Translations under genes and position numbers: made by a program
Notes under the pieces: model-generated
What the model saw: the letters and a program-made list of their open reading frames with translations, nothing else
The model's database searches: none
What the model was told of the DNA's origin: nothing
Shown here: in pieces, positions 12,525 through 39,936 of the stretch
Numbering within the stretch: position 1 is the first letter of the stretch
Layout: the number at the start of each line of letters is the position of its first letter
NCBI GenBank assembly: GCA_030595835.1
Contig: JAUVLG010000011.1
Coordinates: 1-47,481 of the forward strand
Direction: 5' to 3'
Source: Candidatus Eiseniibacteriota bacterium
GTDB lineage: Bacteria; Joyebacterota; Joyebacteria; Joyebacterales; Joyebacteraceae
DNA length: 47,481 nt

Positions 12525-14897
12525 ATGACCAGACATCGCACAGGAATGCACGAACTCAGTACGACGCGCCGACCGACGGCGCCCCGCGCGAATCACCGCG
12601 CGGGGCTCAGAGGGGCACTCGCCTCAACGGGCGCCGTCACACTGACGGTCCAGGTTCTCCTGCTGAGAGAGCTGATGATAGCGTGGCAAGGGAACGAGAT
12701 GTCGTTCGGCATCGTCATGACCGTCTGGCTCGTAGCCGGGGGGATCGGTAGTGCCGCGTACGGCCTCGTGTCGAGCAAGGTAGCTCCCACCAGAGCCAAC
12801 CTTGCTCGCGGCCTCATGGCGCTCGGGATCCTCGCCCCGACCGCCCTCTTCGCAGCGCGTGCCCTGAGGGGAGCCATGGGACTTACCGCGGGAGAGATCT
12901 CCGGATTCGCCCCTCTGGTACTCGCGTCCCTTCTCTCGCTCGCCCCGTTCACGATCGTCGCCGGGCTGTTGTTCGCGCTGTCGACGTCGGTCGTGCATCG
13001 CGAATCCCGCGGCGGCCGAATCGCCGCGGGAGAGGTCTATCTGGTGGAAGCGATCGGCGCCGCCGCCGCCGGACTCGTCGTGAGTTTCGTTCTGCTTCCC
13101 AGACTCAGCCCGGTCTCGATCGCGTTTCTGGTGACGCTTCTCGCGAGCTGCGTGTCCCTCCGACTCGTCCTCTCCTCGCAGTCGGTATCCTCGCGTGGGC
13201 GCCCGGTGAAGACACTTGCCGCCGGGGTCGTCCTCGCCGTGGCCTCGGCGGTGCTTGCCGGTCCGCCGTCCACGCGGCTCGACGATGCTTCGGTGCGAGC
13301 GCAATGGCGCGACATCGGCTTCGTGTCCCAGACGAACTCCGTCTACGGGAGAATCGTCACTGCCAGCATCGGCAGTCAGAAAAGCATCTATGAGAGCGGC
13401 GTGCTCGCCGCCTCGGCGCCCGACAGACTGAGCGCCGAGGAGACGGTGCACCTGCCGATGCTCGTGCACCCGGCGCCGTCTCGCGTGCTTCTTTTGGGAG
13501 GGGGCCTCGGGGGCGCCGTGGGCGAGATTCTCAAGCACCCGGATGTCACCCGCGTCGACTACGTCGAGCTGGACCCGGAACTGATCCCAGCGGCCAGGCG
13601 GGCGTACGGCGAGGCCATGACGGACGGGCTCGACGACGCCCGTGTGAAGGTGCACTTCGCGGACGCCCGTTTCTTCGTCAAGCGCGCCACCGCACCCTAC
13701 GACGTCATCATAGTGGGGGCTCCCGACCCAACGACCGCCCAGCTCAACAGGTTCTACACGGTTGAATTCCAGCGGGAGGTCAGCCGCATCCTTGCCGACG
13801 ACGGCGTTCTGGGGTTCTCCGTCCAGTCGGCCGAGAATTACATCGGCGCAGAGCTGGCCGCGTTCCTCGCGTGTCTGAAAGCAACGACCGAATCCGTCTT
13901 CCCCGCCGTCGCCATGTATCCGGGCGACCCGTGTCACATCGTGGCCTCGCGGTCAGGAGCCGCATTCACGCGGGACGCCCTTGTCCTGAGTGAACGCGTG
14001 AGCGAGCGCGGGCTCGACGTCGCATACGTGCGCGACTACTACCTCTCAGACAGGCTATCGGTCGAGAGGGTCGCGTCCTTCGACTCGGCACTCAAGGATA
14101 TGCGCTCGCGAGTGAACACCGACCTGTCTCCGGCGGCGTACTACCTGAGCATGGTACTGTGGAACAGACAGTTCTCGGGCGCCCCCCGCGTGCTCCTGGC
14201 CGCGCCCCGCTTCATCACGGAGAGAAACGCCATTCTGCTGAGCCTTGCCCTCATCGTTGTTCTGGCCGCGCCGTCGCTTCGGCGCCCAGGATCTGAACGC
14301 TTACGATCGCGCGCGGTCATGGCCGCGGTCTTTCTGGTCGGAGCAACCGAGATGAGCCTGGAGCTGACGGCTCTCCTGGCGTTTCAGAGCATCTACGGCT
14401 ACGTCTACCAGAAGCTCGCGCTCATCGTTGCCGCGTTCATGGCCGGCCTCGCGCTCGGGGGCTGGCTGGGCACGAAGGCAGCCGCGCGTGGAGCCGACGC
14501 GAGGTCGTTCGTGGCGCTGCAACTCCTCATCGCGGCGGTCCCGATCGCTCTCGGTGCCACCCTGACGCGCGTCGCGGCCCTCCCAACCGAGCACCTGCAT
14601 ACCTGGGCGGCGCTCTTTCCACTGATCGTTGTTGGCGCCGCGCTGCTGGCCGGACTGCAGTTCCCCCTGGCCGCGAAGCTCATGTCACGAGAGCGCCGGA
14701 ACGTCGGTGCCGTTGGCGGCAGGCTGTACGGCGCCGATCTCCTGGGTGCCGCGGTCGGCGCGATCGCTACAACGATCTTCCTGCTGCCGATACTGGGAAC
14801 CGCGGGTTCGATGCGCGCGCTGACCATCGTGAACCTCGCCGTGTTCGCGTCGCTCGCTCTCTCTCTCGTCCCGGGGCGACTGGGGCGGCCTGTCTGA
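12525..14897 (+). CDS. Large membrane protein with a central spermidine-synthase-like domain
   Basis: A 790-aa protein with about six membrane segments (residues 30-230), a soluble domain (about 265-540) and five or more membrane segments to the C-terminus. The soluble domain has the SAM-type nucleotide motif LLLGGGLGGAVGEIL and VDYVELDPELI, then YDVIIVGAPDPTTAQLNRFY. True spermidine synthases read V-D-S-S-D-P here; the first Asp is Gly in this protein, while the second is kept. Such fused membrane/spermidine-synthase-like proteins are widespread, and their reaction is unknown to me. It is the only plus-strand gene, divergent from the GT9 unit and convergent with the beta-helix gene. ATG 12525 lacks a ribosome site; ATG 12546, preceded by AGGA, is an alternative. 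Confidence 0.82.
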   Translation: MTRHRTGMHELSTTRRPTAPRANHRAGLRGALASTGAVTLTVQVLLLRELMIAWQGNEMSFGIVMTVWLVAGGIGSAAYGLVSSKVAPTRANLARGLMALGILAPTALFAARALRGAMGLTAGEISGFAPLVLASLLSLAPFTIVAGLLFALSTSVVHRESRGGRIAAGEVYLVEAIGAAAAGLVVSFVLLPRLSPVSIAFLVTLLASCVSLRLVLSSQSVSSRGRPVKTLAAGVVLAVASAVLAGPPSTRLDDASVRAQWRDIGFVSQTNSVYGRIVTASIGSQKSIYESGVLAASAPDRLSAEETVHLPMLVHPAPSRVLLLGGGLGGAVGEILKHPDVTRVDYVELDPELIPAARRAYGEAMTDGLDDARVKVHFADARFFVKRATAPYDVIIVGAPDPTTAQLNRFYTVEFQREVSRILADDGVLGFSVQSAENYIGAELAAFLACLKATTESVFPAVAMYPGDPCHIVASRSGAAFTRDALVLSERVSERGLDVAYVRDYYLSDRLSVERVASFDSALKDMRSRVNTDLSPAAYYLSMVLWNRQFSGAPRVLLAAPRFITERNAILLSLALIVVLAAPSLRRPGSERLRSRAVMAAVFLVGATEMSLELTALLAFQSIYGYVYQKLALIVAAFMAGLALGGWLGTKAAARGADARSFVALQLLIAAVPIALGATLTRVAALPTEHLHTWAALFPLIVVGAALLAGLQFPLAAKLMSRERRNVGAVGGRLYGADLLGAAVGAIATTIFLLPILGTAGSMRALTIVNLAVFASLALSLVPGRLGRPV

Positions 14898-15104: not shown

Positions 15105-16142
15105 CTACCTGTACATCGCCTTGATCGCTCCCCACGTCGTCGCCTCAACGGGAGATGACTGGCAGCCCGTGCAGACCGCGTCGAGCGCACCGATCATCTC
15201 GCCACCCTCGCCGGCCCCGATATGCGGCGACTCAGTATCATCCAGACACACGTGGTAGTCGTATCCGGCCGAGCCGAAGAAGTCGCAATAGAACGGCTCG
15301 GACGAGATGTTCCCATACAGGCCCGTGAGGTCGTCCAGAGACCCACCGTACTCCTGAGGGCCCACTCCCGAGTCCGGGAACATCTGGTCGTTCCAGAAGA
15401 CGTTGCAGTAGGAGATGGTCGGCGTCGCGATATAGGCGTGGATACCGTACTTGCCGTTGTTGGTGACCGCCGTGTTGTGGATCTCGGCGTTGCCGCCGCT
15501 GACATAGACGCCGTAGTCGAAGTTGTCGACGAGCGTGCACCTCTCAATGATGACGGGCTGGGCTCCGTTACCGTAGATGAACATACCGTTGTGCGAGCCG
15601 CGAGCCACGACAACACGCTCGAACATCGGCGCGGAGTCGGCACTGCTGCCCTCGGTCCGAACCACGATACCGGTGGCGCTGTTCTCGATGCTGACGTCCG
15701 TCACCGTCGGACTCGCCGCGTCGAGGCAGCAGATGCCCGCGGCAAGGTTCCTGCCGTCGCCGTCATCCATGAGCCCCTTGTCCCTCGAATCACCGCCCAC
15801 GATCGTCACATTCGAGATGAGCATGCTCCGGCTGACGTTCTGAAGGAGGATACCGTACTCGGCATGCGTGTGGTCGATCTCGACGTCGCTCCCGTCAGCT
15901 CCCAGAAGAACGATGTCGCTCGAAATCCCTACGATCGCGTCCCGAACCCCCAGCGGCGTGTTGAACGAGTGAACACTGTCGTACGTGCCGCTCATGACGA
16001 GGACGGTGTCGCCGGCGTCAGCGAGAACCACCGCCTGCTGGATCGCCGTGATACCCAGCTCTTCGTCCGGCACCATGATCGTGACCGCTCCGGCAGCCGC
16101 GGCCAGCAGGCTGATCAGAAGCGTCAAGAGGACAAAACGCAT
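15105..16142 (-). CDS. Secreted right-handed parallel beta-helix protein with W-G-x-I-K-type C-terminal tail
   Basis: A 345-aa exported protein. The signal peptide MRFVLLTLLISLLAAAAGA is followed by an N-terminal strand region (TAIQQAVVLADAGDTVLVMSGTY), typical of pectate-lyase-like NosD/DUF1565 folds, and about eight beta-helix coils (GILLQNVS, GIVVRTEG, GMFIYGNG, YGVYVSGGN, YGIHAY). Near the end, GNISSEPFYCDFFG resembles the repeated Asn-rich coil cap of these proteins. The last residues, TTWGAIKAMYR, look like a sorting or anchoring tail. ATG 16142 has GGAGG 6 nt upstream; the in-frame ATG at 16148 would touch that site. No catalytic residues are evident; it may be a surface adhesin or a polysaccharide-binding protein. 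Confidence 0.83.
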   Translation of the reverse strand: MRFVLLTLLISLLAAAAGAVTIMVPDEELGITAIQQAVVLADAGDTVLVMSGTYDSVHSFNTPLGVRDAIVGISSDIVLLGADGSDVEIDHTHAEYGILLQNVSRSMLISNVTIVGGDSRDKGLMDDGDGRNLAAGICCLDAASPTVTDVSIENSATGIVVRTEGSSADSAPMFERVVVARGSHNGMFIYGNGAQPVIIERCTLVDNFDYGVYVSGGNAEIHNTAVTNNGKYGIHAYIATPTISYCNVFWNDQMFPDSGVGPQEYGGSLDDLTGLYGNISSEPFYCDFFGSAGYDYHVCLDDTESPHIGAGEGGEMIGALDAVCTGCQSSPVEATTWGAIKAMYR

Positions 16143-16222
16143 CAGCATCCTCCTTCTTGTTTCAAGAGAGGGGTACAATCCAAGGTCGCCGACGACCCCT
16201 TTGGGGACGCCTACAACCAGTG

Positions 16223-16263: not shown

Positions 16264-17394
16264 TCACTGCCAGACACCGTCCACGGCCGCTCCGCACTCC
16301 GAACACCGCCCGTCGACCAGTCCCCTCACCTCCACCGTGTATCCGATCCTGTGGATCAACTCTGCCGAGCAGGCGGGGCAGTATGTGTTATTCGCCTCGT
16401 GCCCGGGCACGTTCCCTATGTAGACGTACTCGAGCCCCTCCTCGAGGGCGATACGACGCGCTTCTTCGAGCCTCTCGACCGGCGTCGGAGGGAGATTCTG
16501 CAGCTTGTGCTGCGGATGGAAGCGGGAAAAGTGCAGTGGCACATCGGCGCCCAGACTCTCGCGAATCCACCGGCACATCGCTCTGAGTTCCTCCGGGTCG
16601 TCGTTCCTGCCGGGCACAAGCAAGGTGGTGATCTCCAGGTGCACGCCCTCCTCCCTGAGTATTCTGAGCGTGCGAAGTACGGGCGCCAGCGAACCGTCCG
16701 ACATGTCGGCGTAGTATTCCTCCGTGAAACCCTTGAGATCGATGTTGGCCGCATCGAGGTACGCACAGAGTTCCCTCAGCGGCTCGGGCATAATGTAGCC
16801 GTTGGAATGATAGACGTTCCGGATGCCCTTGGCGTGCGCGAGTCTCGCGCAGTCCAGCATGTACTCGTAGAAGATCGTGGGCTCCGAGTACGTATACGCG
16901 ATCGACGGACTTCCGCTCCTGACGGCGGCGGCCACGACTTCTTCCGGCGGGAGATCGTAGTTGGCCAGCTCCTCCGGCCGCGCCTGAGATATGTGCCAGT
17001 TCTGGCAGAACTTGCAGTCCAGGTTGCAGCCGGCCGTCGCTATTGAGAACGCCGTGGTCGTCGGGAGGAAGTGGTAGAAGGGCTTCTTCTCGATGGGATC
17101 AACGTGAAGGGCGCAGGGATTACCGTAGGTCAGCGTGTAGTAGACGCCGTCCCTGTTCTCCCTCACCCCGCAGTACCCGCGGCCCCCCGGGGCCACGACG
17201 CATCGCCTCGGACAGAGGCCGCACCTCACCCAGTTCCCGTCGAGGCTTTCCCAGTACGACGCCACCCGGGGACGCGTGAACCCAACCACGGCCGCACCCG
17301 ACCCGCCCGCTGCCAGACCAATGATCCCCGACACCGCTACGAAAGCGGCGACTGCGATCAGGAGGACCGCCCATGGACCGTGTCTCTCTCTCAT
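16264..17394 (-). CDS. amrS: AmmeMemoRadiSam system radical SAM enzyme (AmrS) with N-terminal membrane segment
   Basis: A 376-aa radical SAM protein. The cluster-binding motif is CNLDCKFC, following the family feature CGLCPRRC and preceding a C-terminal zinc-ribbon-like pair (CPAC, CSEC). GNPCALHVDPIEKKPFYHF, AYTYSEPTIFYEY and HSNGYI are characteristic of the AmmeMemoRadiSam family. The N-terminus, after ATG 17394 (AGAGG upstream), is MRERHGPWAVLLIAVAAFVA and forms one membrane helix, which is unusual for a SAM enzyme. The longer GTG start at 17418 adds only eight polar residues. It is the last gene of the long array, 57 nt after the Memo-AMMECR1 fusion. Its reaction is not known. Confidence 0.87.
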   Translation of the reverse strand: MRERHGPWAVLLIAVAAFVAVSGIIGLAAGGSGAAVVGFTRPRVASYWESLDGNWVRCGLCPRRCVVAPGGRGYCGVRENRDGVYYTLTYGNPCALHVDPIEKKPFYHFLPTTTAFSIATAGCNLDCKFCQNWHISQARPEELANYDLPPEEVVAAAVRSGSPSIAYTYSEPTIFYEYMLDCARLAHAKGIRNVYHSNGYIMPEPLRELCAYLDAANIDLKGFTEEYYADMSDGSLAPVLRTLRILREEGVHLEITTLLVPGRNDDPEELRAMCRWIRESLGADVPLHFSRFHPQHKLQNLPPTPVERLEEARRIALEEGLEYVYIGNVPGHEANNTYCPACSAELIHRIGYTVEVRGLVDGRCSECGAAVDGVWQ

Positions 17395-17451
17395 ATCCGC
17401 CTCTGCTTGCCGCTCCACCCAGGAACCAAAGCGATATCCCCGCGGGAGAAC

Positions 17452-19032
17452 CTACTCCTCTCCGAAGACCTCGGCCGTGAACCTGAGAATGGTGACACCC
17501 TCCTGCTTCCAGGAATCCTGCGGAAGCCCCGCCTTCATGCAGGTGTGCTCGAGGAAGGTCTCACGATCCCAACCGTAGTCGGTCGCCACCTGTGGCAGAA
17601 GAAGACCGCTGCGCCCTCCATGCTGTATGATGAGGCCGTGAACTCCCACCTCGATCTCGGACACGTCCTCGACCACGGTGAGGGGCGACATCACTGAGAT
17701 CTCCACGGTCAGCTCATCGAGTTCGTCGGCACTCACCGGGGGAAAGCGCGGATCATGGAACGCCGCCTGCACGGCCATCTCCATGACCGTCTGTTCGAGC
17801 GGTTTGTACGCGCGCACGTGTCCGATACATCCGCGGAGAACACCGCGCTTCTCCAGTGTGACAAAGGCCCCGCATTCGGTTTGGAGGGTCTTCGAGGTGA
17901 ACTCAGCGGGCGGCGGCCAGTTCCCGGCGAGCTCGGCGGCCATCGAGCGTCTGGCCAGCGACAGGAGCGCGCTCCGCTCATCCCCCGTGAGCCCCTCGTA
18001 CGGAGCGTCGTCCGTCGCCACGTCGGAACTCGCAGACTCGACGCCGGTCGCGCCGGCGGTGGACTCATCCCCGCTCTTCGCCGTGGGCGCACCGTGAAGC
18101 ACCGCCGCCATGTAGCCAACCACCTGCGACTTGTCCCCGGTGACATCTCCGGACGTCGCGTAACCAACGACCGTCGAGGTGCGCGCTCCGAATTCACGCG
18201 CCGCCATCATCACGGCCGCCGTAGGCCCTCCCCCGCAGGCTTCGCACTCGCCGCGTGCGAGCGACGCAAGCAGTCCCTCCGGATCGAAGTCCTCAATCGC
18301 CTGGATCACGTGCGAGTCCAGTTCGACGGCCTCGTCGTGGCTGTGGTAGTGGGACAGGTCGGTACTCGCAACCAGGAGCACCCGCTTGCCCGCGGACCCT
18401 CTGACCGCGCCGACGATCCGGGAAGCGAGCTGACGCACCGCGACCTCGCTCTGGTCCCCCATCACGATCGGAACTATGTGGAAGTCGCCGAGCGCTCGTT
18501 GGAGGAACGGCACCTGTACCTCGAGCGAGTGTTCCTCCGAGTGGGCGCGCGGTTCGAAACCGGAACCTCCGGAGGGATCGGCGATCCCGTCGGCCAGTTC
18601 GCGGTCCACCGGAACGACGCCCAGAGGCGTCTGGTACCCGACGCCTCCGAACACCGAAGCGCCCCGGAAGGGAAACCTGTGTGAGGGCGCAACCACGACC
18701 ACCGTGTCGAACGACATTCCCCTGACACACGCGTAGGCGCGTCCCGCCACCGCCCCCGAGTACACGTACCCCGCGTGCGGCGAGATGATCCCCACGATCT
18801 CCCCGTCGAGCTCCCGCGTGCCGGCGGCATCGAGGAATCCGTCGACGTCGTCGGCCAGCACTTGGGGATCTGCCGGGTAGAACGCTCCCGCCACAACCGG
18901 GCGGCGCACCTCACCGGCCGTTTCCTCTCTCTCCACTTTCACGTTTCCATCGCCTCCTTCGGCGCCGCATCCGGTGGCACAGAGAAGAAGCGCCAACAGA
19001 ACCGCCGGAACGCATGTATGCTCTCTCTTCAT
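17452..19032 (-). CDS. Fusion of AmmeMemoRadiSam proteins B (Memo) and A (AMMECR1), predicted lipoprotein
   Basis: A 526-aa two-domain protein. After a lipoprotein-like signal (basic start, VLLALLLCATGC) comes the Memo domain (about 45-320) with VVAGAFYPADP, ISPHAGYVYSG, APSHRFPF and ACGGGPTA, which hold the His and Cys residues conserved in Memo. A linker of about 35 residues leads to an AMMECR1 domain (about 350-520) with LRGCIGHVRAYKPL and AFHDPRFPP. These two, with AmrS encoded next to it, complete the AmmeMemoRadiSam system, whose function is undefined. ATG 19032 overlaps the nadB stop by 4 nt. The export signal on this protein and the membrane helix on AmrS suggest an envelope-located system. 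Confidence 0.88.
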   Translation of the reverse strand: MKREHTCVPAVLLALLLCATGCGAEGGDGNVKVEREETAGEVRRPVVAGAFYPADPQVLADDVDGFLDAAGTRELDGEIVGIISPHAGYVYSGAVAGRAYACVRGMSFDTVVVVAPSHRFPFRGASVFGGVGYQTPLGVVPVDRELADGIADPSGGSGFEPRAHSEEHSLEVQVPFLQRALGDFHIVPIVMGDQSEVAVRQLASRIVGAVRGSAGKRVLLVASTDLSHYHSHDEAVELDSHVIQAIEDFDPEGLLASLARGECEACGGGPTAAVMMAAREFGARTSTVVGYATSGDVTGDKSQVVGYMAAVLHGAPTAKSGDESTAGATGVESASSDVATDDAPYEGLTGDERSALLSLARRSMAAELAGNWPPPAEFTSKTLQTECGAFVTLEKRGVLRGCIGHVRAYKPLEQTVMEMAVQAAFHDPRFPPVSADELDELTVEISVMSPLTVVEDVSEIEVGVHGLIIQHGGRSGLLLPQVATDYGWDRETFLEHTCMKAGLPQDSWKQEGVTILRFTAEVFGEE

Positions 19033-20770: not shown

Positions 20771-21694
20771 TCAGCACTCCAACATCCGTGTCAGGGCGCT
20801 CTGCGCCCGGATGCGGACGTCGTCCGGCACGACTATCTCGTGTTCCTCGGTGTCCAGGGCCCATACCACACCCGGCAGGTCGATCATCTTCATGTCCCGA
20901 CATACGGCGAACGGCGATAGCGGGTAGAACCGCTTCCCCGGGTGGTCGCGCTTCAGTCTGTCGATGAGCCCTATCTCGGTACCCACTATCAGGCTGTCGT
21001 GCTCGGCCGCGAGGTTTACCATGCCCTCCGTCGACGCGACGAAGTCGGCCATCGAAATAACGTCCGGCGGACACTCCGGGTGCACCACGATCGGCGACTC
21101 CGGGTGCGCGGCGGTCGCGACGACCACGTCCTCAGGAACGAACATGTCATGCACGTAGCAGTAACCGTCCCAGGGGATTATCGTCTTGTCCGTCTGAGAG
21201 GCCACGTATGCGGCGAGGTTCCTGTCGGGAACGAAGAGGATCTCGTCTGCGTCCAGCGATTCGGTGACGCGCACGGCGTTCGATGATGTGCAGCACACAT
21301 CGCTCTCGGCCTTCACGGCGGCTGATGTGTTCACGTAGCAAACCACCGGGGCCCCGGGGTGCTCGGCCTTGAAGACCCTGAGCTGCTCGGCCGTTATCAT
21401 GTCGGCCATCGGGCAGCCCGCGGACAGCGACGGCAGAACGACCCTCTTGGATGGATTGAGTATCTTCGCGCTCTCGGCCATGAAGAGCACACCACACAGG
21501 ACAATGAGCTCGGCATCGCTGGTCGCCCCGAGCTGGGCGAGAACGAGTGAGTCGCCGACGGAATCCGATACCCTCTGGACCGCATCGACTTGGTAGTTGT
21601 GTCCGAGGATGACGGCGTTTCTCGTGTGCTTGAGTTCCTCGCAGCGTGCGACGAGCTCCGCCTCAGACATCCTCGCGTACTCCTCGAACTTCAT
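20771..21694 (-). CDS. nadA: Quinolinate synthase
   Basis: A 307-aa [4Fe-4S] enzyme that condenses iminosuccinate with dihydroxyacetone phosphate to quinolinate, directly downstream of NadB in NAD synthesis. The three expected cluster cysteines are C94 (AGCPMADM), C179 (WDGYCYVHD) and C265 (FAVCRDMKM). GHNYQVDAVQ near the N-terminus is also diagnostic. It is the short form, close to archaeal and Thermotoga enzymes. ATG 21694 has GGAGGG upstream and overlaps the lpxK stop by 4 nt. nadC is not in the window. Confidence 0.95.
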   Translation of the reverse strand: MKFEEYARMSEAELVARCEELKHTRNAVILGHNYQVDAVQRVSDSVGDSLVLAQLGATSDAELIVLCGVLFMAESAKILNPSKRVVLPSLSAGCPMADMITAEQLRVFKAEHPGAPVVCYVNTSAAVKAESDVCCTSSNAVRVTESLDADEILFVPDRNLAAYVASQTDKTIIPWDGYCYVHDMFVPEDVVVATAAHPESPIVVHPECPPDVISMADFVASTEGMVNLAAEHDSLIVGTEIGLIDRLKRDHPGKRFYPLSPFAVCRDMKMIDLPGVVWALDTEEHEIVVPDDVRIRAQSALTRMLEC

Positions 21695-22854
21695 TGTTCC
21701 CTCCGTCTCAAGAGAACTCCGTTGAGAGCCTCCACCAGGAGCTCCTTCCCACGCGTGATCTCGAGCTCAATGCCAAGTGCCACGAGCGGAACGCGGGACC
21801 GCCATGGCCTCAGCCTGACGGCGTCCTTCTCGGTGGTCAGTATCGTGTCCGCGCCAACCTCGCGGGCGGCCTCGACGACGACGTCGACGTCGTCCCCGGA
21901 GTAGTTGTGGTGGTCGGGCAGCGCCAGACGGCCCCGGACGTTCATCCTGAGCCTCGCGAGTGTGCGCTCGAAGTCCAGCGGGTCCGCGATGCTCGACAGC
22001 GCCAGACAACTGCACTTCCTGAGATCGGCCGCCCTGACGGTGTCACCAGTTCCGACGTCCCAGAACACTACCGGCTTCATCCTTGTCTCGATCACCGCCG
22101 CGGATGGAGCCAGCGGGCCCAGCGCCCCGATGACGCGGTCGGCTCCGGCCGCGCGATCGCACCTCGTCGCTACCAGGACATCGGCACGCCCAACGCCCGA
22201 GGGGTGCTCACGGAGAGGACCACCTGGAAGAAGGTGTCCATTCCCCACGGGAGCTGCGGCGTCCACGGCCAGGATGTCCAGATCCCTCGCCAACTGCACG
22301 TGCTGGAACGCATCGTCCAGTAGTATAACATCTGCTCCCAACTCTTCCACAGCGAGTCGAACACCCATGCGCCGGCGCTCAGACACGACGATCGATACGC
22401 CTTCCATCACGAGCGCCATCATGTATGGCTCGTCGCCGGCGTCGCGCCACTTGACGAGGGATCCCTCGCCCCGGGACACCACGAGGGGGCCCTTGGAGCG
22501 CCGGCCGTATCCGCGGCTCACGACGGCGACCTTCCGGCCCTTCCCCGCCAGGTGCCTGGCGAGGTACATGGTCAGGGGCGTCTTTCCCGCCCCCCCCGCT
22601 ACGAGGTTCCCCACGGATATGACGGGGACATCGAAGCGGGCGGGTCTGATCGCCCTGACCCACAGCGACACGGCGGCGCCGATCCCGTACAGCACTGACA
22701 GGAGAACGAGCACGCCGGCGACCGCCACGTTCAGCCCCTCGGGCTCGTCCCGACCCATCGCGAGTCCGCGCCACCAGTCGACGAACCTCGCGAGCCCGGT
22801 CAGGGCCGCGGGCTCCTCGCTCAGCTTCCGGCTGGGATCATCCCGATGCGCCAT
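21691..22854 (-). CDS. lpxK: Tetraacyldisaccharide 4'-kinase
   Basis: A 387-aa inner-membrane kinase that phosphorylates the 4' position of the lipid A disaccharide. It has one N-terminal membrane helix (about 44-64), the P-loop ISVGNLVAGGAGKTP (about 80-94), SRGYGRRSKG and the LDDAFQHVQLARD motif typical of LpxK. The extra residues before the helix are longer than in E. coli LpxK. ATG 22854 has GGGGTG about 5 nt upstream; TTG one codon earlier is possible. It lies 68 nt after the acyltransferase gene and overlaps nadA by 4 nt. Confidence 0.93.
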   Translation of the reverse strand: MAHRDDPSRKLSEEPAALTGLARFVDWWRGLAMGRDEPEGLNVAVAGVLVLLSVLYGIGAAVSLWVRAIRPARFDVPVISVGNLVAGGAGKTPLTMYLARHLAGKGRKVAVVSRGYGRRSKGPLVVSRGEGSLVKWRDAGDEPYMMALVMEGVSIVVSERRRMGVRLAVEELGADVILLDDAFQHVQLARDLDILAVDAAAPVGNGHLLPGGPLREHPSGVGRADVLVATRCDRAAGADRVIGALGPLAPSAAVIETRMKPVVFWDVGTGDTVRAADLRKCSCLALSSIADPLDFERTLARLRMNVRGRLALPDHHNYSGDDVDVVVEAAREVGADTILTTEKDAVRLRPWRSRVPLVALGIELEITRGKELLVEALNGVLLRRREQ

Positions 22855-22922
22855 CAAGCACCCCGATCGATTCCAGGAATCCGACAGTGCGCGCGGTCGC
22901 GCCCCGCCGTTCGGCCACGGCT

Positions 22923-23600
22923 CTAGGCGCCCTGGCGCGCGACCGCCTCTTCGGCCTCTGCGTTCACACGACCGAGCGCCGCCTCAAGCAGGGCCGCCTT
23001 CTCCTCGAACGGAGCGAACTCGTCCCACTCGAGCGGCTCACCATAAACGACAGCGACGCGGGAGAAAGGCAACGGGACCATGAAGCTGTCCCAGCTCGAC
23101 AGCCGTCTTGCGCGGGCCGCGGCCACACCAACCGGGACCAGCGCCCCACCCGACTTCTCCGCCAGGTAGAATATGCCCCGCTTGATGCTCCGGGCGGGGC
23201 CCTTCGGGCCGTCAGGCGTGATCGCGAGGTCGAGCCCCTCGACCGCCCTCGCGAGCATGCGCAGCAGCCCTCTGGCGGAGCCCCTGGTCGACGAACCGCG
23301 CACAACACCGTAGCCGAACGCCGTCATCAGCCGCGCGCTCATCTCCCCGTCCCGGTGCCACGACGAGAGCACCTGAATACTCCTTCCCCTGCAGATGTAC
23401 TCCAGAGGAAGCAGCACGCCGTGCCAGAACGCGAACACCACCGGCCGCCCGGATTCGTGGACGCGCTCCACGCGCTCGACGTGGATCTCGGTCGCGCGCC
23501 AGGTGGCGCCCAGCAGACGCACCAGAACCGGCCCTACAAGCCCGACCGATGCTACGAGGATCCTGTCCACTACGGACAGCTTTGTCCTCCCGGGGCTCAT
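22923..23600 (-). CDS. DUF374-type lysophospholipid acyltransferase family protein
   Basis: A 225-aa membrane-associated acyltransferase. VVFAFWHGVLLPLEYI and SWHRDGEMSARLM match the DUF374 branch, where the usual H-x4-D catalytic motif appears as HRDGEM. GVVRGSSTRGS and LAITPDGPKGPARSIKRG, which bind the acceptor phosphate in this fold, are also present. Genes of this branch commonly lie beside lpxB and lpxK and may add secondary acyl chains to lipid A. ATG 23600 overlaps the lpxB stop by 4 nt; the much longer open frame upstream is a shadow of lpxB. The acyl donor and acceptor are not settled by sequence. Confidence 0.88.
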   Translation of the reverse strand: MSPGRTKLSVVDRILVASVGLVGPVLVRLLGATWRATEIHVERVERVHESGRPVVFAFWHGVLLPLEYICRGRSIQVLSSWHRDGEMSARLMTAFGYGVVRGSSTRGSARGLLRMLARAVEGLDLAITPDGPKGPARSIKRGIFYLAEKSGGALVPVGVAAARARRLSSWDSFMVPLPFSRVAVVYGEPLEWDEFAPFEEKAALLEAALGRVNAEAEEAVARQGA

Positions 23601-24733
23601 TCTACGCCACCGATCATGTCCAGGACCATTCGCGCGACCCTGTCGCTCGCACCGGGGTCGCCGAGTTCGCGCCGGACGTCGAGCAGGTCGTGGGACATCC
23701 CCTCGCGAAGGACCGGATTGGTCAGGAGCGGGGCGACCTCCCGAGCCATGCGAACGGCGGTCGCGTCTCCCTGCACGAGTTCCGGCACGATCTTCCTGTT
23801 CGCCACGACGTTGACGAGCCCTATGTGCGGGACCTTTACCAGCGCACGGCCGACCACGTAGGACAACCACGCCAGCCTGTAGACAATGACCATCGGTGTG
23901 CCCAGACACGCCGCTTCCAGCGTCGCGGTCCCGGACGATATCAGGAGAGCGGTCGCTCCACGCATAACCTCGTGCACGGCGCCAGGTGGCAGTACCTCCA
24001 CACCCAGACGCGCGGGGTCGCCATTCCGGACCAGAAACGCTTCACTGATCCCGTGTGCGCGCCCGAGCCGAACGGTGAGGCCGTCTATCTCATCCCGCAG
24101 AAGCTCGACGGCACCCAGCATCGCGGGCAGAAGCCGCTCGATCTCGTGTTTGCGACTGCCAGGGAGAAGTCCGAGCACCACCCCGTCCGGTGAAGCGGCG
24201 TGAGGCGGATCGGTCAGGGCCGGCTCCTCGAGCAGCGGGTGCCCCACGAAGTCAACGTCCACACCCCGCTCCCGATAGAACTCGACCTCGAACGGGAAGA
24301 TGACGGCCATGCGGTCCACACGGGCCGCTATCTTCCGCACCCTTCCCTCCCCCCACGCCCAGACCTGCGGGCTTACGTAGTAGAGGACGCGCACTCCGAT
24401 CCGGCGGAGCCGCTTGGCAAGCATGAGATTGAAACCGGGGTAGTCAACAAGAACGGCCAGGCGCACGTCTCTCTCGGACGCGAGAGCAACGAGACGGTCC
24501 ATGGCGCTTCTCAGGAACGGAATGTGACGCAGCACCTCTACGAGACCTACCACCGCGAAGTCGTCACAGTGGTAGACAAGCTCACAACCGGCGTCGCGCA
24601 TCCGGTCGCCACCGACACCGAATGTGGCGATCGCGGGGTCGAGCTCGCGCAGCCGCTCGACGACCTTGGACGCGTGAAGATCGCCGGAGGCCTCACCCGC
24701 AACCACGAGCACCGCGTTTCGCACTGTGGTCAT
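23597..24733 (-). CDS. lpxB: Lipid-A-disaccharide synthase
   Basis: A 378-aa GT19 enzyme that joins UDP-2,3-diacylglucosamine to lipid X, making the beta-1,6 disaccharide at the inner face of the membrane. Features: VVAGEASGDLHASKVV at the N-terminus, DYPGFNLMLAKRLR, YYVSPQVWAWGEGRV, DFVGHPLLEE, LLPGSRKHEI and ISSGTATLEAACLGTPMVIVYR, all family signatures in the proper order. Length is normal. ATG 24733 has GGAGG 6 nt upstream. It lies 89 nt after the GnnA-like gene, a gap with nothing I could name, and overlaps the following acyltransferase gene. Confidence 0.96.
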   Translation of the reverse strand: MTTVRNAVLVVAGEASGDLHASKVVERLRELDPAIATFGVGGDRMRDAGCELVYHCDDFAVVGLVEVLRHIPFLRSAMDRLVALASERDVRLAVLVDYPGFNLMLAKRLRRIGVRVLYYVSPQVWAWGEGRVRKIAARVDRMAVIFPFEVEFYRERGVDVDFVGHPLLEEPALTDPPHAASPDGVVLGLLPGSRKHEIERLLPAMLGAVELLRDEIDGLTVRLGRAHGISEAFLVRNGDPARLGVEVLPPGAVHEVMRGATALLISSGTATLEAACLGTPMVIVYRLAWLSYVVGRALVKVPHIGLVNVVANRKIVPELVQGDATAVRMAREVAPLLTNPVLREGMSHDLLDVRRELGDPGASDRVARMVLDMIGGVE

Positions 24734-24822
24734 CGCAGCCTCCGATACTCTCTCCGTGCCGGAGACGTCGGAACCTCTGTTGAGGAAGCGATCGTCAACG
24801 CCGCCGCTAAGGCCCGGCCCGG

Positions 24823-25785
24823 CTAGCCAATCTGCTGGAGGATCTCCATCGCAACCTCGAGCGCGCGAAGACCGTCTTCCCCGCTAACCAACGGCGCCGA
24901 GCGCCCGGACGCGGCGTCGACGAAGGCGCCCAACTCCAGTTCGAGTGAATCCTGCGAGTCCAGCGGCAGGTCCTCGTAGTCGACGACGTCCGCGAGACCG
25001 CCCTCTATCTCACCCGAGGCGATCCGGCGAAGCTTGTCCTCTGACACTCCCTTCCTGCGGAAGACCTGCGCCCTCGGCGTGAGCGTGTCGACGGTGACAT
25101 AGGCGTCGGGCTGGAAGAAGCGGATCTTCCTCACCTTCTCTCGGGACACTCTGCTCGCCGTGATGTTGGCCACACAACCGTCCGCGAAGGAGAGCCGTGC
25201 GTTCGCGATGTCGATGGACGGCGAGAGCACCGGGATGCCCACTGCGTCAATCGACGTGACGTCCGAGTCGACGGTCCCCAAGATTAGATCGATGTCGTGG
25301 ATCATGAGGTCCAGCACCACCGCTACATCCGTCCCCCTGGGAACGAAGACACCCAACCTGTGCACCTCTATGAACTTGGGCGCGTCCAGCACGACCATGG
25401 CCGCGCGGACTGCCGGGTTGAAGCGCTCGATGTGCCCGACCTGCACCACCAGGCCCTTCTCGCGCCCCAGGTCGACGATCTCTCTCGCCTCGTCGACGGT
25501 CTTGGCAACGGGCTTCTCGATGAACACGTGGACACCGGCCTCAAGACAGCAACTCGCCACCTTGTGGTGCGAGACGGTCGGCGTCGCGATGCTGACCGCG
25601 TCCACACCTCCGAGGAGCTCCCCGAGGTCCGCGATGGCCGTCGTCCCGTACTCACTCGCAATCTCGGCTGCCCTCGCGGCGTCGCTGTCGTGGACGCCCA
25701 CGAGCTCACAGGCACCGAGTTCCGAGAAGACCCTCGTGTGGAACCTCCCCAGATGACCCACCCCCACAACTCCGACTCGGAGCAT
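24823..25785 (-). CDS. Gfo/Idh/MocA oxidoreductase, UDP-GlcNAc 3-dehydrogenase (GnnA)-like by context
   Basis: A 320-aa NAD(P)-dependent oxidoreductase. The Rossmann motif GVGHLG is at 8-13, the EKP motif at 90-92, and HDID at 163-166 holds the conserved active-site residues of the family. It sits between lpxA and lpxB, where Acidithiobacillus carries gnnA and gnnB. GnnA oxidises UDP-GlcNAc at C3 so that GnnB can put in an amino group, which gives lipid A with four amide-linked acyl chains. No aminotransferase is next to it, so the GnnA call is by position only. Similar lone oxidoreductases lie in this place in Geobacter-type lipid A clusters. ATG 25785 has GGAGGG 6 nt upstream, after a 17-bp hairpin. 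Confidence 0.82.
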   Translation of the reverse strand: MLRVGVVGVGHLGRFHTRVFSELGACELVGVHDSDAARAAEIASEYGTTAIADLGELLGGVDAVSIATPTVSHHKVASCCLEAGVHVFIEKPVAKTVDEAREIVDLGREKGLVVQVGHIERFNPAVRAAMVVLDAPKFIEVHRLGVFVPRGTDVAVVLDLMIHDIDLILGTVDSDVTSIDAVGIPVLSPSIDIANARLSFADGCVANITASRVSREKVRKIRFFQPDAYVTVDTLTPRAQVFRRKGVSEDKLRRIASGEIEGGLADVVDYEDLPLDSQDSLELELGAFVDAASGRSAPLVSGEDGLRALEVAMEILQQIG

Positions 25786-25845
25786 CTTGAACCCTCCGTA
25801 GCGCTCTTGCCACCAGCCACCTGCCGGCAGAGCACGAGATTCGGC

Positions 25846-25882
25846 GTGCGAAAAAGCAGGGGCTCCCCCCGCTTCTTCGCAC
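25846..25882 (-). repeat. 17-bp intercistronic hairpin between lpxA and the GnnA-like gene
   Basis: The minus-strand RNA can form a complete 17-bp stem (5' arm GUGCGAAGAAGCGGGGG) closed by a GAG loop, with two G-U pairs. The complementary strand would have two A-C mismatches instead, so the structure fits minus-strand RNA. No U-run follows, which argues for an RNA-processing or stability element rather than a simple terminator. Confidence 0.65.
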
Positions 25883-25900
25883 GCGTCCAGTGTCGCGAGC

Positions 25901-26680
25901 CTACTTGATAATACCTCGAGTCGAGTTCTCGATGAACCCGACGAGTCGCGAGATCTCAGCGTTCATGGGAAGCATGGACCTGATGCGCTCGACCGCCTGC
26001 GTCGTGTTCAGGTCAGACAGGTAGAGTATTCTGTACGCCTTGCGGAGGTAGTTCAACGACTCCTCCGAGAAGCCTCGCCGCAAAAGGCCGATGGTGTTCA
26101 TCTCGATCGGGCGAGTCGGGACACCGCCTATCTTGAGATAGGGAGGCACGTCCTTGGTCACGCGGCACGCTCCGCCGACGTAGCTGTGAGTCCCGATATG
26201 GACGAACTGCTGCACGGCAGTCATGCCGCCGATGATGGCGTAGTCCTCGACGATCACGTGGCCGGCCAGATTGACCGCGTTCGTGATAACCACGTGGTCC
26301 CCGATGACGCAGTTGTGAGCCACGTGCGCGTACGCCATGACCAGCGTGTCGCTACCCACGCGCGTTGGCTCATCGTCCTCTCCGGTCGTCGCCCGATTGA
26401 CCGTCGCGAACTCACGGATGGTCGTGCGGTCCCCGATGACAAGACGTGTCACCTCACCGTGGTACTTCAGGTCCTGCGGATCGGTCCCGACAACCGCCAG
26501 GTGACCCAGCACGCAGTCCTCGCCAATGGTCGTGTTCTTCTCCACCAGGGCCATCCCACCCACAACGGTCCCGCGACCTAGCTCTACGTCGCGGCCGATG
26601 ATGGCGAACGGACCTATGCAGACGCCCTCGCCTATCCGCGCGCTCTCGTGTACTACTGCTCTCTCGTCTATGCCAGTCAT
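25901..26680 (-). CDS. lpxA: UDP-N-acetylglucosamine acyltransferase
   Basis: A 259-aa left-handed beta-helix acyltransferase that adds a 3-hydroxyacyl chain to UDP-GlcNAc, the first step of lipid A synthesis. Hexapeptide repeats run through residues 1-190, and MAYAHVAHNCVIG carries the catalytic His. TDPQDLKYHGE and EFATVNRATTG are LpxA signatures, and the helical C-terminus (NTIGLLRRGFSEESLNYL) is typical. ATG 26680 lies 6 nt after the lpxC-fabZ stop. Whether it prefers UDP-GlcNAc or the 3-amino sugar (which the next gene might help to make) cannot be read from sequence. Confidence 0.96.
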   Translation of the reverse strand: MTGIDERAVVHESARIGEGVCIGPFAIIGRDVELGRGTVVGGMALVEKNTTIGEDCVLGHLAVVGTDPQDLKYHGEVTRLVIGDRTTIREFATVNRATTGEDDEPTRVGSDTLVMAYAHVAHNCVIGDHVVITNAVNLAGHVIVEDYAIIGGMTAVQQFVHIGTHSYVGGACRVTKDVPPYLKIGGVPTRPIEMNTIGLLRRGFSEESLNYLRKAYRILYLSDLNTTQAVERIRSMLPMNAEISRLVGFIENSTRGIIK

Positions 26681-26686
26681 GTAACT

Positions 26687-28000
26687 CTAGGTCTCTCTTT
26701 CCACGACCTGTGACCACAGGTCGCCGTCGGCCACAAGCTCGCCTCTGACGTAGGCGGCCCCATGCATCTTGCATGTCCCGCCACGTAACCTGAGGAGCTC
26801 AAGCTCGAAGCGCACGGAGTCGCCGGGGCGCACCGGCCGCCTGAACCTCGCCTTGTCGATGCCCATGAAGTAGACGAGTTTCTTCTCGCACTCTTCCATC
26901 CTCGACAGAAGCAGAAAACCGCCGACCTGTGCCATCGCCTCCACCAGAAGTACGGCGGGAACGATCGGATGGCCGGGGAAGTGCCCCACGAAGAACCACT
27001 CGTTCACGGTGAAGTTCTTCATGCCGATAACACGCTTGTCGTCGAGTTCGAGTATCTTGTCGACCAGCAGGAACGGGAAGCGGTGCGGAAGTATCTGCTC
27101 GATGGCGTCGATGTCCCAACCCGTCGTGCCGCCGTACTTGATCTTGCCTTGCTGGATCGCGCTCCGAAGCCGGTCGACGAACTGGACGTTAGTGGAGTGA
27201 CCCGACTTCGACGCGTAGACGTGGCCGCGCAGAGGCATCCCCAGAAGCGCGAGGTCACCCAGCAGATCGAGAATCTTGTGCCGGACAAACTCGTCGGGGA
27301 ATCTGAGGGCGCCTTGATTAACGATACCGTCCGTGCCGACGACGATGGCGTTCTCAAGACTGCCGCCTTTGATGAGCCCCATCTTCTGAAGATCCTCAAC
27401 GTCGCTCTGCAGCGCGAACGTCCGGGCTGGGGCGATCTCCTCGAGAAACGTCTTCTCGGTGATCTCGAAGCTGGCGTACTGCGTACCGATGGTGGCGTTC
27501 TCATAGTCGATTATGAAAGAGAGCTTGAAGCCGTCGTACGGGCTCGCGGTAATCTGAACATCTCCGTCATCGAACGAAACAGGTTCGGTGATCTCCAGAT
27601 ACTGGAGCGGAGCATTTTGTTCAACGATCCCGGCCTTGGTCAGTATGCCAACGAACGACTCGCAGCTGCCGTCCGTGGGTTCGGCGGGTTCGTCGGCGTC
27701 CAACTCCACGATGGCGTTGTCGATGCCCAGACCCGCGAGCGCGGCGAGCACGTGTTCGACGGTGTGGATCTTCACGCCCTTCAGCGAGAGCGTCGTACGA
27801 CGGAGGTTGCCGCCGCTCAAAGCAACGTGCTTGATGGAAGCCGGAATCTCCGGAGCACCCGGCAGGTCGACTCTCACGAACACGACACCGTGGTCTGGAG
27901 GAGCCGGTTTGAACGAAACCGTCACCTCCTGGCCAGTGTGGATGCCGACGCCCGAATACGAACAGCCGCTCTTGAGTGTTCTCTGCCGCGTCCTGAGCAT
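26687..28000 (-). CDS. lpxC-fabZ: Bifunctional LpxC deacetylase / FabZ 3-hydroxyacyl-ACP dehydratase
   Basis: A 437-aa fusion. The LpxC half (about 1-290), the committed zinc deacetylase of lipid A synthesis, has HTVEH (79-83), RHKILDLLGDLALLG and GHSTNVQFV, supplying zinc-binding His and Asp and the general base. The FabZ half (about 300-437), a fatty acid dehydratase, has ILPHRFPFLLVDKI and GHFPGHPIVPAVLLVEAMAQ with the catalytic His and Glu. Combining the two enzymes that compete for 3-hydroxyacyl-ACP is typical of Bacteroidota and relatives. I chose ATG 28000, which shares one base with the lpxD stop (TGATG) and has GAGGAG upstream; a GTG at 28021 would lie within lpxD. Confidence 0.95.
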   Translation of the reverse strand: MLRTRQRTLKSGCSYSGVGIHTGQEVTVSFKPAPPDHGVVFVRVDLPGAPEIPASIKHVALSGGNLRRTTLSLKGVKIHTVEHVLAALAGLGIDNAIVELDADEPAEPTDGSCESFVGILTKAGIVEQNAPLQYLEITEPVSFDDGDVQITASPYDGFKLSFIIDYENATIGTQYASFEITEKTFLEEIAPARTFALQSDVEDLQKMGLIKGGSLENAIVVGTDGIVNQGALRFPDEFVRHKILDLLGDLALLGMPLRGHVYASKSGHSTNVQFVDRLRSAIQQGKIKYGGTTGWDIDAIEQILPHRFPFLLVDKILELDDKRVIGMKNFTVNEWFFVGHFPGHPIVPAVLLVEAMAQVGGFLLLSRMEECEKKLVYFMGIDKARFRRPVRPGDSVRFELELLRLRGGTCKMHGAAYVRGELVADGDLWSQVVERET

Positions 28001-29115
28001 CAGATCTCCTCGTCCGGACACTCGCGCCCATCCTCGGTCCGGCCACCGCCTGCCGTGCCGGCGGCGCCCCCGCGTTCCGAGACACTCTCGAGCTGGCTTA
28101 TACGGGACTCCAGGCCCCTGACCTTCTCGACGAGTTTGGGGAGGTGCTCGACGAACGCGTACAACCGCTTCGCCGCGGAGTGCTTTCGGGCAGGATACCC
28201 CGATACGCGTTCGCCCGACGGAACCGACTTGGTCACGCCGGCCTGCGCGGCCACCATCGCGCCGTCCCCTATCTCTATGTGCCCGACGATTCCGGCCTGA
28301 CCGGCGAGGATGACTCCCTTGCCGATCCTGGTGCTTCCGGAGATACCGGCCTGGGCAACGACTATCGAGCCTTCCCCGATCACCACGTTGTGAGCCACCT
28401 GGACCAGGTTGTCTATCTTGCTGCCGCGACAGATGCGCGTCGAACCGAGAGTCGCTCTGTCAACGCAGACGTTCGTCCCGATCTCAACGTCGTCCTCGAT
28501 GACAACGTTCCCGATCTGAGGGACCTTCGTGTGCGAACGAGCAGAGAGGGCGAACCCGAAGCCGTCGCTTCCAATGACGGTTCCGGAGTGAACAACGACA
28601 CGGTCCCCCAGAACGCACCGGTTGCGTATCGTAACGTTCGGGTAGATCGTCACGTCCTGCCCCAGTACCGCCGACGTGCCCAGGAACGATCCGGCGTGGA
28701 TCGCGGCCCCATCCCCAATGGTCACGTCGTTCATCACGACGACATTGGCGCCGATCCTGACCCTCTCACCCAGCGTTGCCGACTGGGCGACTACCGCGGA
28801 GGGGTGAACCCCCTCGCTCACGACGTCACCCTCCGGGGCGAAGAGAACCATAGCCCTCGCGAAAGCGTCGTAGGGATCGTCCGCAACGAGGAGTGAGGTA
28901 CTGCAGTTATGCGATCCGGCCGCGTAGCTCCGGGATACTACGACCGCCGACGCTGACGTGTCCGCCACGTACTTCTCATAGCCGGGGTTGGAGACGAAGG
29001 TCAGTTCACCTTCACGCGCTTCCTTGATCCCCGCGACACCGGTGAGTTTGGTGGAGCCGTCACCGATGACCTCACACCCGACGAAATTCGCTACCTCTGC
29101 GAGGGTAATGCTCAT
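28000..29115 (-). CDS. lpxD: UDP-3-O-(3-hydroxyacyl)glucosamine N-acyltransferase
   Basis: A 371-aa acyltransferase for the third step of lipid A synthesis. An N-terminal uridine-binding domain ([18 protein letters not shown], then [14 protein letters not shown]) precedes a hexapeptide left-handed helix. SDGFGFA and [14 protein letters not shown] (catalytic His) are diagnostic, and the C-terminal helix is followed by about 35 Gly-, Glu- and Arg-rich residues absent from E. coli LpxD. ATG 29115 has GGAGCGGGA upstream. It follows the OmpH gene by 40 nt, the usual skp-lpxD order. Confidence 0.96.
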
Positions 29116-29155
29116 TCCCGCTCCGGATAATGACGGAAAGAAAACGGAGACCGTG

Positions 29156-29686
29156 CTATTCCTCCGTCCCGTTGAGCTTGTCGAGCACCTCCTGGGTGAG
29201 GTCGGTGGAGGGAGCGGCGTAGACGATGCCCATGCGCGCCGCGTCGAAGATCATCACATATTCGCCGTCGACGCCAATGTCCTCCAGTATCCCGTTGATC
29301 CTGTCGAAGATCGGCTGCCAGAGCTCGGCCTCGCGCTGCGCGGCGAGGCCACCGGTACCCCATACTCCATTCAGGAACTCCTCGAACTCCAGCTGCTTCC
29401 GCTGGATCGCCATCTCCTTCTCACCGGCCGCCTCATCAGAGAGCAGAAGCCGCTGGTTCTTGAACTCGATTATCAGTCCCTCTATCTCCTGCTCGTGCTC
29501 GCGGGCCTGGGTCCGCCAGTCGGCGACGCTGGCCTCCAACTGCGCATCGAGATCCCTGGCGCCGACGTACTCGAGCCTGAGCTGCTCGGAGTTGATATAG
29601 CCTACGTCGTCCGAGCACCAGGCACTCGCAGAGAGGAGCATGACGAACGCCGTGACGACGACAGGAATGCGGCAGTAGTATCTCAT
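29156..29686 (-). CDS. OmpH/Skp-family periplasmic chaperone
   Basis: A 176-aa exported protein. The signal peptide ([19 protein letters not shown]) is followed by [13 protein letters not shown], the short strand that begins Skp, then a long charged coiled coil (about 45-130) and a final strand region ([22 protein letters not shown]). Skp trimers hold unfolded outer-membrane proteins on their way to BamA, encoded next to it. The ATG at 29686 has GGAGG 8 nt upstream; TTG one codon earlier is less likely. Confidence 0.9.
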
Positions 29687-29741
29687 CAAGAGAACCTCCG
29701 TGTTCGCCCGGCAACGTCCGGACGTCTATAGGATAGTCGCG

Positions 29742-32129: not shown

Positions 32130-32163
32130 TATCATGCTCCTCCATAGTCCCGCTCAAACCGGC

Positions 32164-38844: not shown

Positions 38845-38877
38845 TGGCGCCTCCGTTTGGCGGCGGGTGAACCCTAG

Positions 38878-39936
38878 CTAGTTCAGTCCGGCCAGATTTC
38901 TGCGCACCAGATCGGCCCTCGCGATGTCGCGTTCACGAGCGGACGGTGCCTTTCCGCGTGTGCGGCTGAGGTGTCCGGGCTGCGTGACCACAAGGAGTCG
39001 GTTGAGAACGGCCAGGTCCGGCGCGTCGATGATCTCCAGCGCCACGCCGAGCCTCAGAGACGACGCCTTCTCCATGACCTCCGTCGACGTTATCATCCTC
39101 GCGTTCGCCAGAACCCCGCGCGCTCGCCAGACCTCGTCCTCCAGATGATGTTCGTCCGTCCGCTTGAGTTCACTTCTCGCCTCGTGCTCGAGGTTGACCA
39201 GCTGTCTGGCCACCCGTTCGACCGTGTTCGCGATGTCCTCTTCCGACTGCCCGAGGGTGGTCTGGTTCGAGATCTGGAAGAACCCTCCCTGCGCGGCGCT
39301 GCCCTCGCCGTAGAAACCTCTCACCGACAGCCCGAGCTTGCTGATGCTCTTCAGGACCTGGGCGATCCTCCCGGTCCGCGAAAGCCCCGCGAGATGTGCG
39401 AGGACGGAGACACGTATTCCCGTCCCCACATTTGTGGGGCAAGCTGTCAAGTATCCCCAGTCACTGCAGAAGGCATAATGCAAGTTCCGCTCCAGTTCAG
39501 AGTCGATGCGCTCGACCAGACGCCAGGCCTCGATCGGGGCAAGTCCGGAGCGGATGCACTGCAGGCGCAGGTGGTCCTCCTCGTTTATCATGCCGGAAAC
39601 CAGCTCGCGCTCGCCGGCGATCACCGCCCTGCCGGCGCCGTCTTCGGCGAAGGCGGCGGAGATGAGATGCCGCTCGACGAGCACGCGACGCGTGACGGGA
39701 TCGACGTCCTCCATCCGGAGCACCAGCGCGTTCGTCAGGTAGTTGCACTTCGACACCGCGGAAAGGACGCTCTCGCGGGCGTGCTCAGCCTCCTCGTCGC
39801 TCGAGCAGCACGGGAACGTCTCGTCGGACAGATTCCTGGCAAGCCTCACGCGCGTAGAGAGAACGACATCCGACTCGGGCCCGGAAGCGTCGAGCCAGCC
39901 TGCCGTCTCACTTATCATTGTCTCGAACGTCCACAT
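38878..39936 (-). CDS. mcsB: Protein arginine kinase McsB
   Basis: A 352-aa guanidino kinase that phosphorylates arginine residues and so marks proteins for ClpC-ClpP. VLSTRVRLARNL (25-36), NEEDHLR (118-124) and ACPTNVGTG with Cys 166 are the catalytic-site features of McsB and creatine kinases. RDIARA (336-341) is the R-D-x-x-R-A phosphoarginine receptor motif that permits cooperative activation. The length is normal. ATG 39936 overlaps mcsA by 29 nt with GGAG 7 nt upstream; ATG 39918 is a less likely alternative. mcsA, mcsB and clpC are consecutive. Confidence 0.95.
   Translation of the reverse strand: MWTFETMISETAGWLDASGPESDVVLSTRVRLARNLSDETFPCCSSDEEAEHARESVLSAVSKCNYLTNALVLRMEDVDPVTRRVLVERHLISAAFAEDGAGRAVIAGERELVSGMINEEDHLRLQCIRSGLAPIEAWRLVERIDSELERNLHYAFCSDWGYLTACPTNVGTGIRVSVLAHLAGLSRTGRIAQVLKSISKLGLSVRGFYGEGSAAQGGFFQISNQTTLGQSEEDIANTVERVARQLVNLEHEARSELKRTDEHHLEDEVWRARGVLANARMITSTEVMEKASSLRLGVALEIIDAPDLAVLNRLLVVTQPGHLSRTRGKAPSARERDIARADLVRRNLAGLN

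Follow-up and report, generated by a model that had tools for sequence, protein, structure and literature searches.

Genes and domains at the locus

The window, by which we mean the whole stretch of 47,481 nucleotides analysed here, encodes on its minus strand a radical SAM enzyme, AmrS, next to a protein in which Memo and AMMECR1 are fused. The features of the two genes are as follows.

16264-17394, minus strand: AmrS, the AmmeMemoRadiSam radical SAM enzyme, 376 amino acids (TIGR04337)
17305-17379, minus strand: N-terminal membrane helix or signal anchor of AmrS, without a twin-arginine motif (sequence, hydropathy, and family conservation)
17170-17223, minus strand: N-terminal four-cysteine motif of AmrS, CxxCx3C...C (kept in 217 of 217 classified AmrS proteins)
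17005-17028, minus strand: radical SAM CxxxCxxC cluster motif of AmrS (kept in 217 of 217 classified AmrS proteins, including 39 of 39 Sec/anchor types)
17452-19032, minus strand: Memo and AMMECR1 fusion lipoprotein, 526 amino acids (TIGR04336 and TIGR04335; PF01875 and PF01871)
18967-19032, minus strand: lipoprotein signal peptide of the fusion, with lipobox ATGC and Cys22 (sequence; kept in family members)
18100-18906, minus strand: Memo domain, in which the His, His, and Cys iron ligands of human MEMO1 are kept (profile match; ligands from PMC11081632)
17464-17970, minus strand: AMMECR1 domain with the LRGCIG motif (profile match)

All three families of the AmmeMemoRadiSam system (TIGR04335, TIGR04336, and TIGR04337) are matched above their cut-offs, with catalytic and metal residues kept. 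AmrS scores 395.8 bits against TIGR04337 (cut-off 220), and a single ORF scores both 284 bits against the Memo family TIGR04336 (cut-off 26) and 188 bits against the AMMECR1 family TIGR04335 (cut-off 99), which, with the lipobox sequence, bears out the initial annotation of a Memo-AMMECR1 fusion carrying a lipoprotein-like signal. Searches of the window genome found its sole Memo and its sole AMMECR1, both inside the fusion adjoining AmrS, and the A, B, and radical SAM parts of the system are thus all present. A second AmrS gene of this genome (L054, contig C231, 5919-6947) is signal-less and has neither Memo nor AMMECR1 nearby. Second AmrS copies in the same bacterial family adjoin RnfB-, RnfG-, and ApbE-like genes.

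The AmrS ORF spans 16264-17418 on the minus strand; its likely start is the ATG at 17394, preceded by the Shine-Dalgarno-like GAGGCGG, with an alternative GTG start at 17418. The N-terminus of AmrS, MRERHGPWAVLLIAVAAFVAVSGIIGLAAGG, consists of a charged tip followed by a long hydrophobic helix. That of the fusion, MKREHTCVPAVLLALLLCATGC|GAEGG, has the charged n-region, hydrophobic core, and lipobox of a lipoprotein, residues 15-22 reading LLLCATGC ahead of GAEGG, and this arrangement is kept in the family.

The AlphaFold (AF2) model of AmrS has a pLDDT of 90.7, with the first 38 residues undefined, and its best match among solved folds is the pyruvate formate-lyase (PFL) activating enzyme (3cb8, TM 0.79 of target), which together with the CxxxCxxC motif at 17005-17028 places AmrS among the radical SAM enzymes, defined by this motif in a partial TIM barrel. 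Although the PFL-activating enzyme (3cb8, 3c8f) is the closest solved fold, it shares only 18% identity with AmrS, is cytosolic, and possesses neither the membrane helix of AmrS nor its additional cysteine sets near the two termini. Human MEMO1 binds iron or copper through H49, H81, and C244 (PMC11081632). The fold of MEMO1 (7kq8) and its His, His, and Cys ligands are common to the window Memo domain, but MEMO1 is a eukaryotic intracellular protein, unfused and with no radical SAM partner.

The initial annotation placed the pair at the end of an outer-membrane gene array. The pair does not end this array directly, since it is separated from the lipid A genes by nadB and nadA. At an ATGA, the stop codon of nadB and the start codon of the fusion overlap, and a nadB-like gene is found in all loci of the same family. 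Beyond it, the lipid A and outer-membrane array occupies 21691-32135 on the minus strand (lpxK, DUF374, lpxB, a GFO/IDH dehydrogenase, lpxA, an lpxC-fabZ fusion, lpxD, and bamA). Lipid A neighbors are restricted to the window's own family, and a role in outer-membrane biogenesis was rejected as a general clue from the neighborhood. Directly downstream of AmrS, at 15105-16178 on the minus strand, lies a gene for a secreted β-helix (NosD-like) protein, found in this position only in the same family. At 36394-40450, also on the minus strand, clpC, an mcsB-type ATP:guanido phosphotransferase gene, and UVR-motif (mcsA-like) genes form an arginine-phosphorylation set of a kind better known from Firmicutes.

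Export signals on AmrS and Memo

All sampled members of the window's family whose locus is intact have a long AmrS that carries an N-terminal helix and adjoins a Memo-AMMECR1 protein with a signal and a lipobox, so a chance origin of the helix was rejected. Nearly all sampled members also possess an additional, signal-less AmrS with no Memo nearby. In distant bacteria, AmrS proteins adjoining Memo-AMMECR1 lipoproteins carry canonical twin-arginine signals, e.g., ISRRKFLKTSAAFCAVG in locus L053. The survey took in about 100 further loci from 290 genomes plus 80 named ones, across Omnitrophota, Desulfobacterales, Bacteroidota, Planctomycetota, Chloroflexi, Acidobacteriota, Elusimicrobia, Verrucomicrobia, and others. 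Signals were called by our own rules (motif, hydropathy, start codon, and Shine-Dalgarno sequence, with alternative starts corrected by hand) and not by SignalP. By these rules, the 219 AmrS sequences placed on a tree comprise 86 Tat-type, 39 Sec/anchor-type, 14 split-type, 78 cytosolic, and 2 ambiguous proteins, an export signal of either the twin-arginine (86) or Sec/anchor (39) kind thus being present on 125 of the 219. The start of the cytosolic proteins lies a few residues ahead of the core, and they offer no alternative signal; the exported and cytosolic classes therefore separate cleanly.

The signals of the two partners are coupled. Where Memo fell within the fetched stretch, it had a signal peptide, anchor, or lipobox in 72 of the 76 loci with an exported or split AmrS, compared with one of four near a cytosolic AmrS and none of 12 standalone control Memo genes from other genomes. 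The fused gene is always on the same strand as AmrS, and fusions lacking signals also exist. The initial annotation had raised the question of whether both partners carry export signals together, and they do; the hydrophobic N-termini, whose absence from relatives would have counted against its reading, are instead kept and coupled, and in many related lineages take the form of canonical twin-arginine signals. Its description of the pair as an envelope-targeted AmmeMemoRadiSam system is supported by these sequences and is, in our judgment, the best reading of the two genes.

In the split-type loci, in about nine of which the anchor, with its EAxYY-like motif, is encoded by a small gene of its own immediately ahead of an AmrS without a signal, the small membrane or secreted ORF often overlaps AmrS (L143, L145, L146, L148, L152, L171, L179, L285, and L287). 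These AmrS proteins lack a signal of their own although their genomes encode TatC. A programmed frameshift joining the anchor to AmrS was rejected because the relative reading frames vary between loci. In L145 and L171, the Memo fusion opens with an AmrS-like EARFY or EAKWY stretch ahead of its membrane helix.

In a FastTree phylogeny of the 219 AmrS proteins, the 139 exported and split rows all fall on the same side of one branch; that side comprises 144 rows, and the support of the branch is only 48. Within this exported clade, Tat and Sec/anchor types have swapped 13-15 times, and the split type arose once. TatC was found in 30 of 30 genomes with a Tat-type AmrS, in 1 of 13 with a Sec/anchor-type AmrS outside the window's family, and in 1 of 18 genomes of that family carrying a helix-bearing AmrS, counts by which the presence of TatC accounts for the swaps. 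The direction of this link is firm and its statistics are modest: of five well-supported independent contrasts on the tree, 3.5 agree (range 3-4) and none disagree. The window AmrS has no RR motif, and TatC is absent from its genome, which rules out Tat export there.

A membrane-bound spermidine-synthase-like partner

A third gene of the window, which the initial annotation had overlooked as a conserved partner and which we call spdM, converges on AmrS and lies 1.4 kb from the pair.

12525-14897, plus strand: SpdM, 790 amino acids, seven transmembrane helices, a spermidine-synthase-like domain, and seven further transmembrane helices (PF01564)
13320-13949, plus strand: spermidine-synthase-like domain of SpdM (residues 266-475), predicted to be extracytoplasmic (Foldseek; loop charge)

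Partners were sought by all-against-all clustering of the ORFs of the loci, which is noisy from antisense ORFs; overlapping ORFs were removed before counting. SpdM emerged as one further family confined to loci with an exported or split AmrS, being present in 87 of 151 such loci and in none of the 78 cytosolic ones, and the 64 loci in which it was absent from the fetched stretch lie partly at contig ends. It is encoded on the same strand as AmrS and less than 150 nucleotides away in 35 loci. Among whole genomes outside the window's family, SpdM is present in 47 of 51 with an exported or split AmrS versus 4 of 45 with only cytosolic AmrS, some of these four having further AmrS genes outside the fetched loci (p 8e-18, uncorrected for ancestry; Fisher p values ignore shared ancestry, and exported AmrS form nearly a single clade with few independent pairs). 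On the tree, 2.6 of four independent contrasts between SpdM and AmrS export agree, and none disagree. Within the open-access literature that we searched, the link of SpdM to AmmeMemoRadiSam was not known before.

SpdM falls below the cut-offs for spermidine synthases, scoring 92 bits against speE (cut-off 249.55) and 207 against PRK03612 (NF002956; cut-off 472), and the alignment shows that the catalytic Asp pair of these enzymes is incomplete, the first Asp being replaced (VNLPDPxTAQxNRFYT). The AlphaFold (AF2) model (pTM 0.90) consists of seven helices, the synthase-like domain, and about seven more helices, and the best Foldseek matches of the domain are the polyamine aminopropyltransferases 1uir and 3anx. 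SpdM shares N-terminal helices followed by a spermidine-synthase-like domain with the membrane- and MFS-fused spermidine synthases (NF002956, NF037959), from which it differs in its score (207 versus 472 bits, NF002956), in the seven extra helices, and in the replaced Asp. The charges of its loops alternate regularly, from about +0.8 to +2.3 in the inner loops and from −0.9 to +0.9 in the outer ones, and SpdM is therefore predicted to have its two termini in the cytoplasm and the synthase-like domain on the outer side of the membrane. That SpdM handles SAM would be a guess from the modeled fold.

Other neighbors of AmrS in the exported clade include Tat-exported DUF362 proteins (24 loci versus none; e.g., 3897-4922 of L247), CcdA/DsbD-like membrane proteins (13 loci versus none; named from sequence and not by family search), and NosR-like proteins, which combine FMN-binding and 4Fe-4S domains (10 loci versus one). 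In three AmrS proteins (L177, L224, and L275), a CxxCH haem c motif lies between the Tat signal and the core. The fused haem c and these neighbors suggest several ways in which electrons could be brought to the outer face of the membrane.

Compartment and possible chemistry of exported AmrS

Tat signals move folded cluster proteins outward and haem c is attached outside the cytoplasm, and an extracytoplasmic location of the Tat-type AmrS relatives is well supported by their sequences. Among 48 Sec/anchor N-termini, the N-terminal flank of the helix is the more positive in 36, the reverse holds in four, and the flanks are equal in eight; several look cleavable, with clean AxA sites, e.g., LFA|EE and AWA|ES. 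The flank charges of the window AmrS itself are ambiguous (N-terminal +1, C-terminal +2), and its N-in orientation, from which we infer a periplasmic face, is read from the charges of its relatives. The initial annotation had correctly placed a membrane helix at the start of AmrS and had further remarked that the radical SAM domain could even face the periplasm, which would be unusual; such an orientation seems to be general in a large AmrS clade, and the window's own charges leave it ambiguous for the protein about which it was proposed.

By every sequence test, the window encodes a member of the AmmeMemoRadiSam system, which differs from the known system in the export signals on both genes, the fusion of A and B, and the added membrane-bound spermidine-synthase-like partner. 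Its proposed localization and its third partner are new within the open-access literature searched, which holds no report of AmmeMemoRadiSam export or of SpdM. Burroughs et al. 2019 (J Biol Chem), in which Memo gene contexts are reportedly described, lies outside that scope. A study of extracytosolic flavinylation (Meheust 2021) makes no mention of Memo or AMMECR1. Like the hydrogenases and formate dehydrogenases, the Tat-type AmrS proteins would be folded, cluster-bearing enzymes with RR signals, but to our knowledge no Tat-exported Fe-S enzyme of this kind is a radical SAM enzyme. Some Tat-exported Fe-S enzymes leave the cell as hitchhikers (PMC10924467).

In our view, the AmmeMemoRadiSam system of the window is probably a variant located outside the cytoplasm. 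AmrS, a PFL-activase-like enzyme, would be anchored in the inner membrane and extend its catalytic domain into the periplasm, the Memo-AMMECR1 lipoprotein would share that compartment, and the nucleoside-binding, spermidine-synthase-like domain of the 14-helix SpdM would face it as well. In related forms, Tat would export AmrS folded and loaded with its clusters, and Tat-less lineages such as that of the window would use a Sec-type anchor. Beyond the cytoplasm, SpdM may supply or recycle SAM or a molecule derived from it, and electrons may reach AmrS through envelope carriers, i.e., fused haem c, NosR-like flavoproteins, and CcdA-like proteins. The AmrS radical may then act on a substrate that sits in the metal-binding Memo and AMMECR1 domains; for both the electron routes and this action we offer a guess.

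The usual view of radical SAM enzymes is that they are cytosolic, since the cytosol is where SAM, reductant, and Fe-S assembly occur. A widespread clade of AmrS with Tat or Sec signals, accompanied by an exported partner and a membrane protein with a SAM-binding fold, would imply either that SAM chemistry takes place outside the cytoplasm or that the fold has been put to a new use, and radical SAM chemistry may run in the cell envelope too. Memo and AMMECR1 are long-unsolved proteins, both linked to human disease, to which export of the system would give a compartment, partners, and testable predictions. We know of no SAM pool in the periplasm and of no Fe-S clusters built there, and for a Sec-exported AmrS the latter is a hard problem. 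Only tentatively do we extend the proposal to the clade as a whole, with radical SAM chemistry outside the cytoplasm for which SpdM would provide SAM or a relative of it, and haem c, flavin, or thiol carriers the electrons, with an envelope substrate modified by AmrS together with Memo-AMMECR1, and, in Tat-less lineages, with a 4Fe-4S enzyme matured after Sec export.

Another arrangement of the Tat-less window lineage, which we consider unlikely, is that AmrS is only tethered, with its N-terminus outside and its catalytic domain on the cytoplasmic side, where SAM and the assembly of Fe-S clusters are available, so that it and Memo-AMMECR1 would lie on opposite faces or AmrS would act on its partner before export. 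The absence of TatC from 17 of the 18 family genomes with a helix-bearing AmrS, the window's flank charges (+1 and +2), and the split-type AmrS lacking a signal are consistent with such tethering, but the more positive N-terminal flank in 36 of 48 relatives (less positive in four, equal in eight), the cleavable-looking signals, and the predicted outside location of Memo and the SpdM domain speak against it, and the repeated swapping of Sec and Tat types within one clade argues for a single side.

Still less probable is an exported AmrS without SAM radical chemistry, its clusters serving redox or metal handling with Memo and SpdM being an unrelated transporter. The lack of any known SAM in the periplasm would fit it, as would the binding of iron or copper by human MEMO1 (PMC11081632), but in all 125 exported copies the CxxxCxxC motif and the second, N-terminal set of four cysteines are invariant, as they are in all 217 classified AmrS, exported and cytosolic; the predicted fold matches the SAM-bound PFL-activating enzyme, and the fold of SpdM is one that binds SAM-like nucleosides. 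The His, His, and Cys ligands of Memo have been retained in all, or nearly all, of the exported fusions, as has the LRGCIG motif of AMMECR1. Finally, GTG codons just ahead of the core in the window would allow the AmrS helix to be an annotation artefact and the protein to be cytosolic, which is highly improbable since the protein sequence of the helix is conserved throughout the family, the helix of several members starts at an ATG with a Shine-Dalgarno sequence while GTG codons are missing around the core, and full Tat signals occupy the equivalent place in distant relatives.
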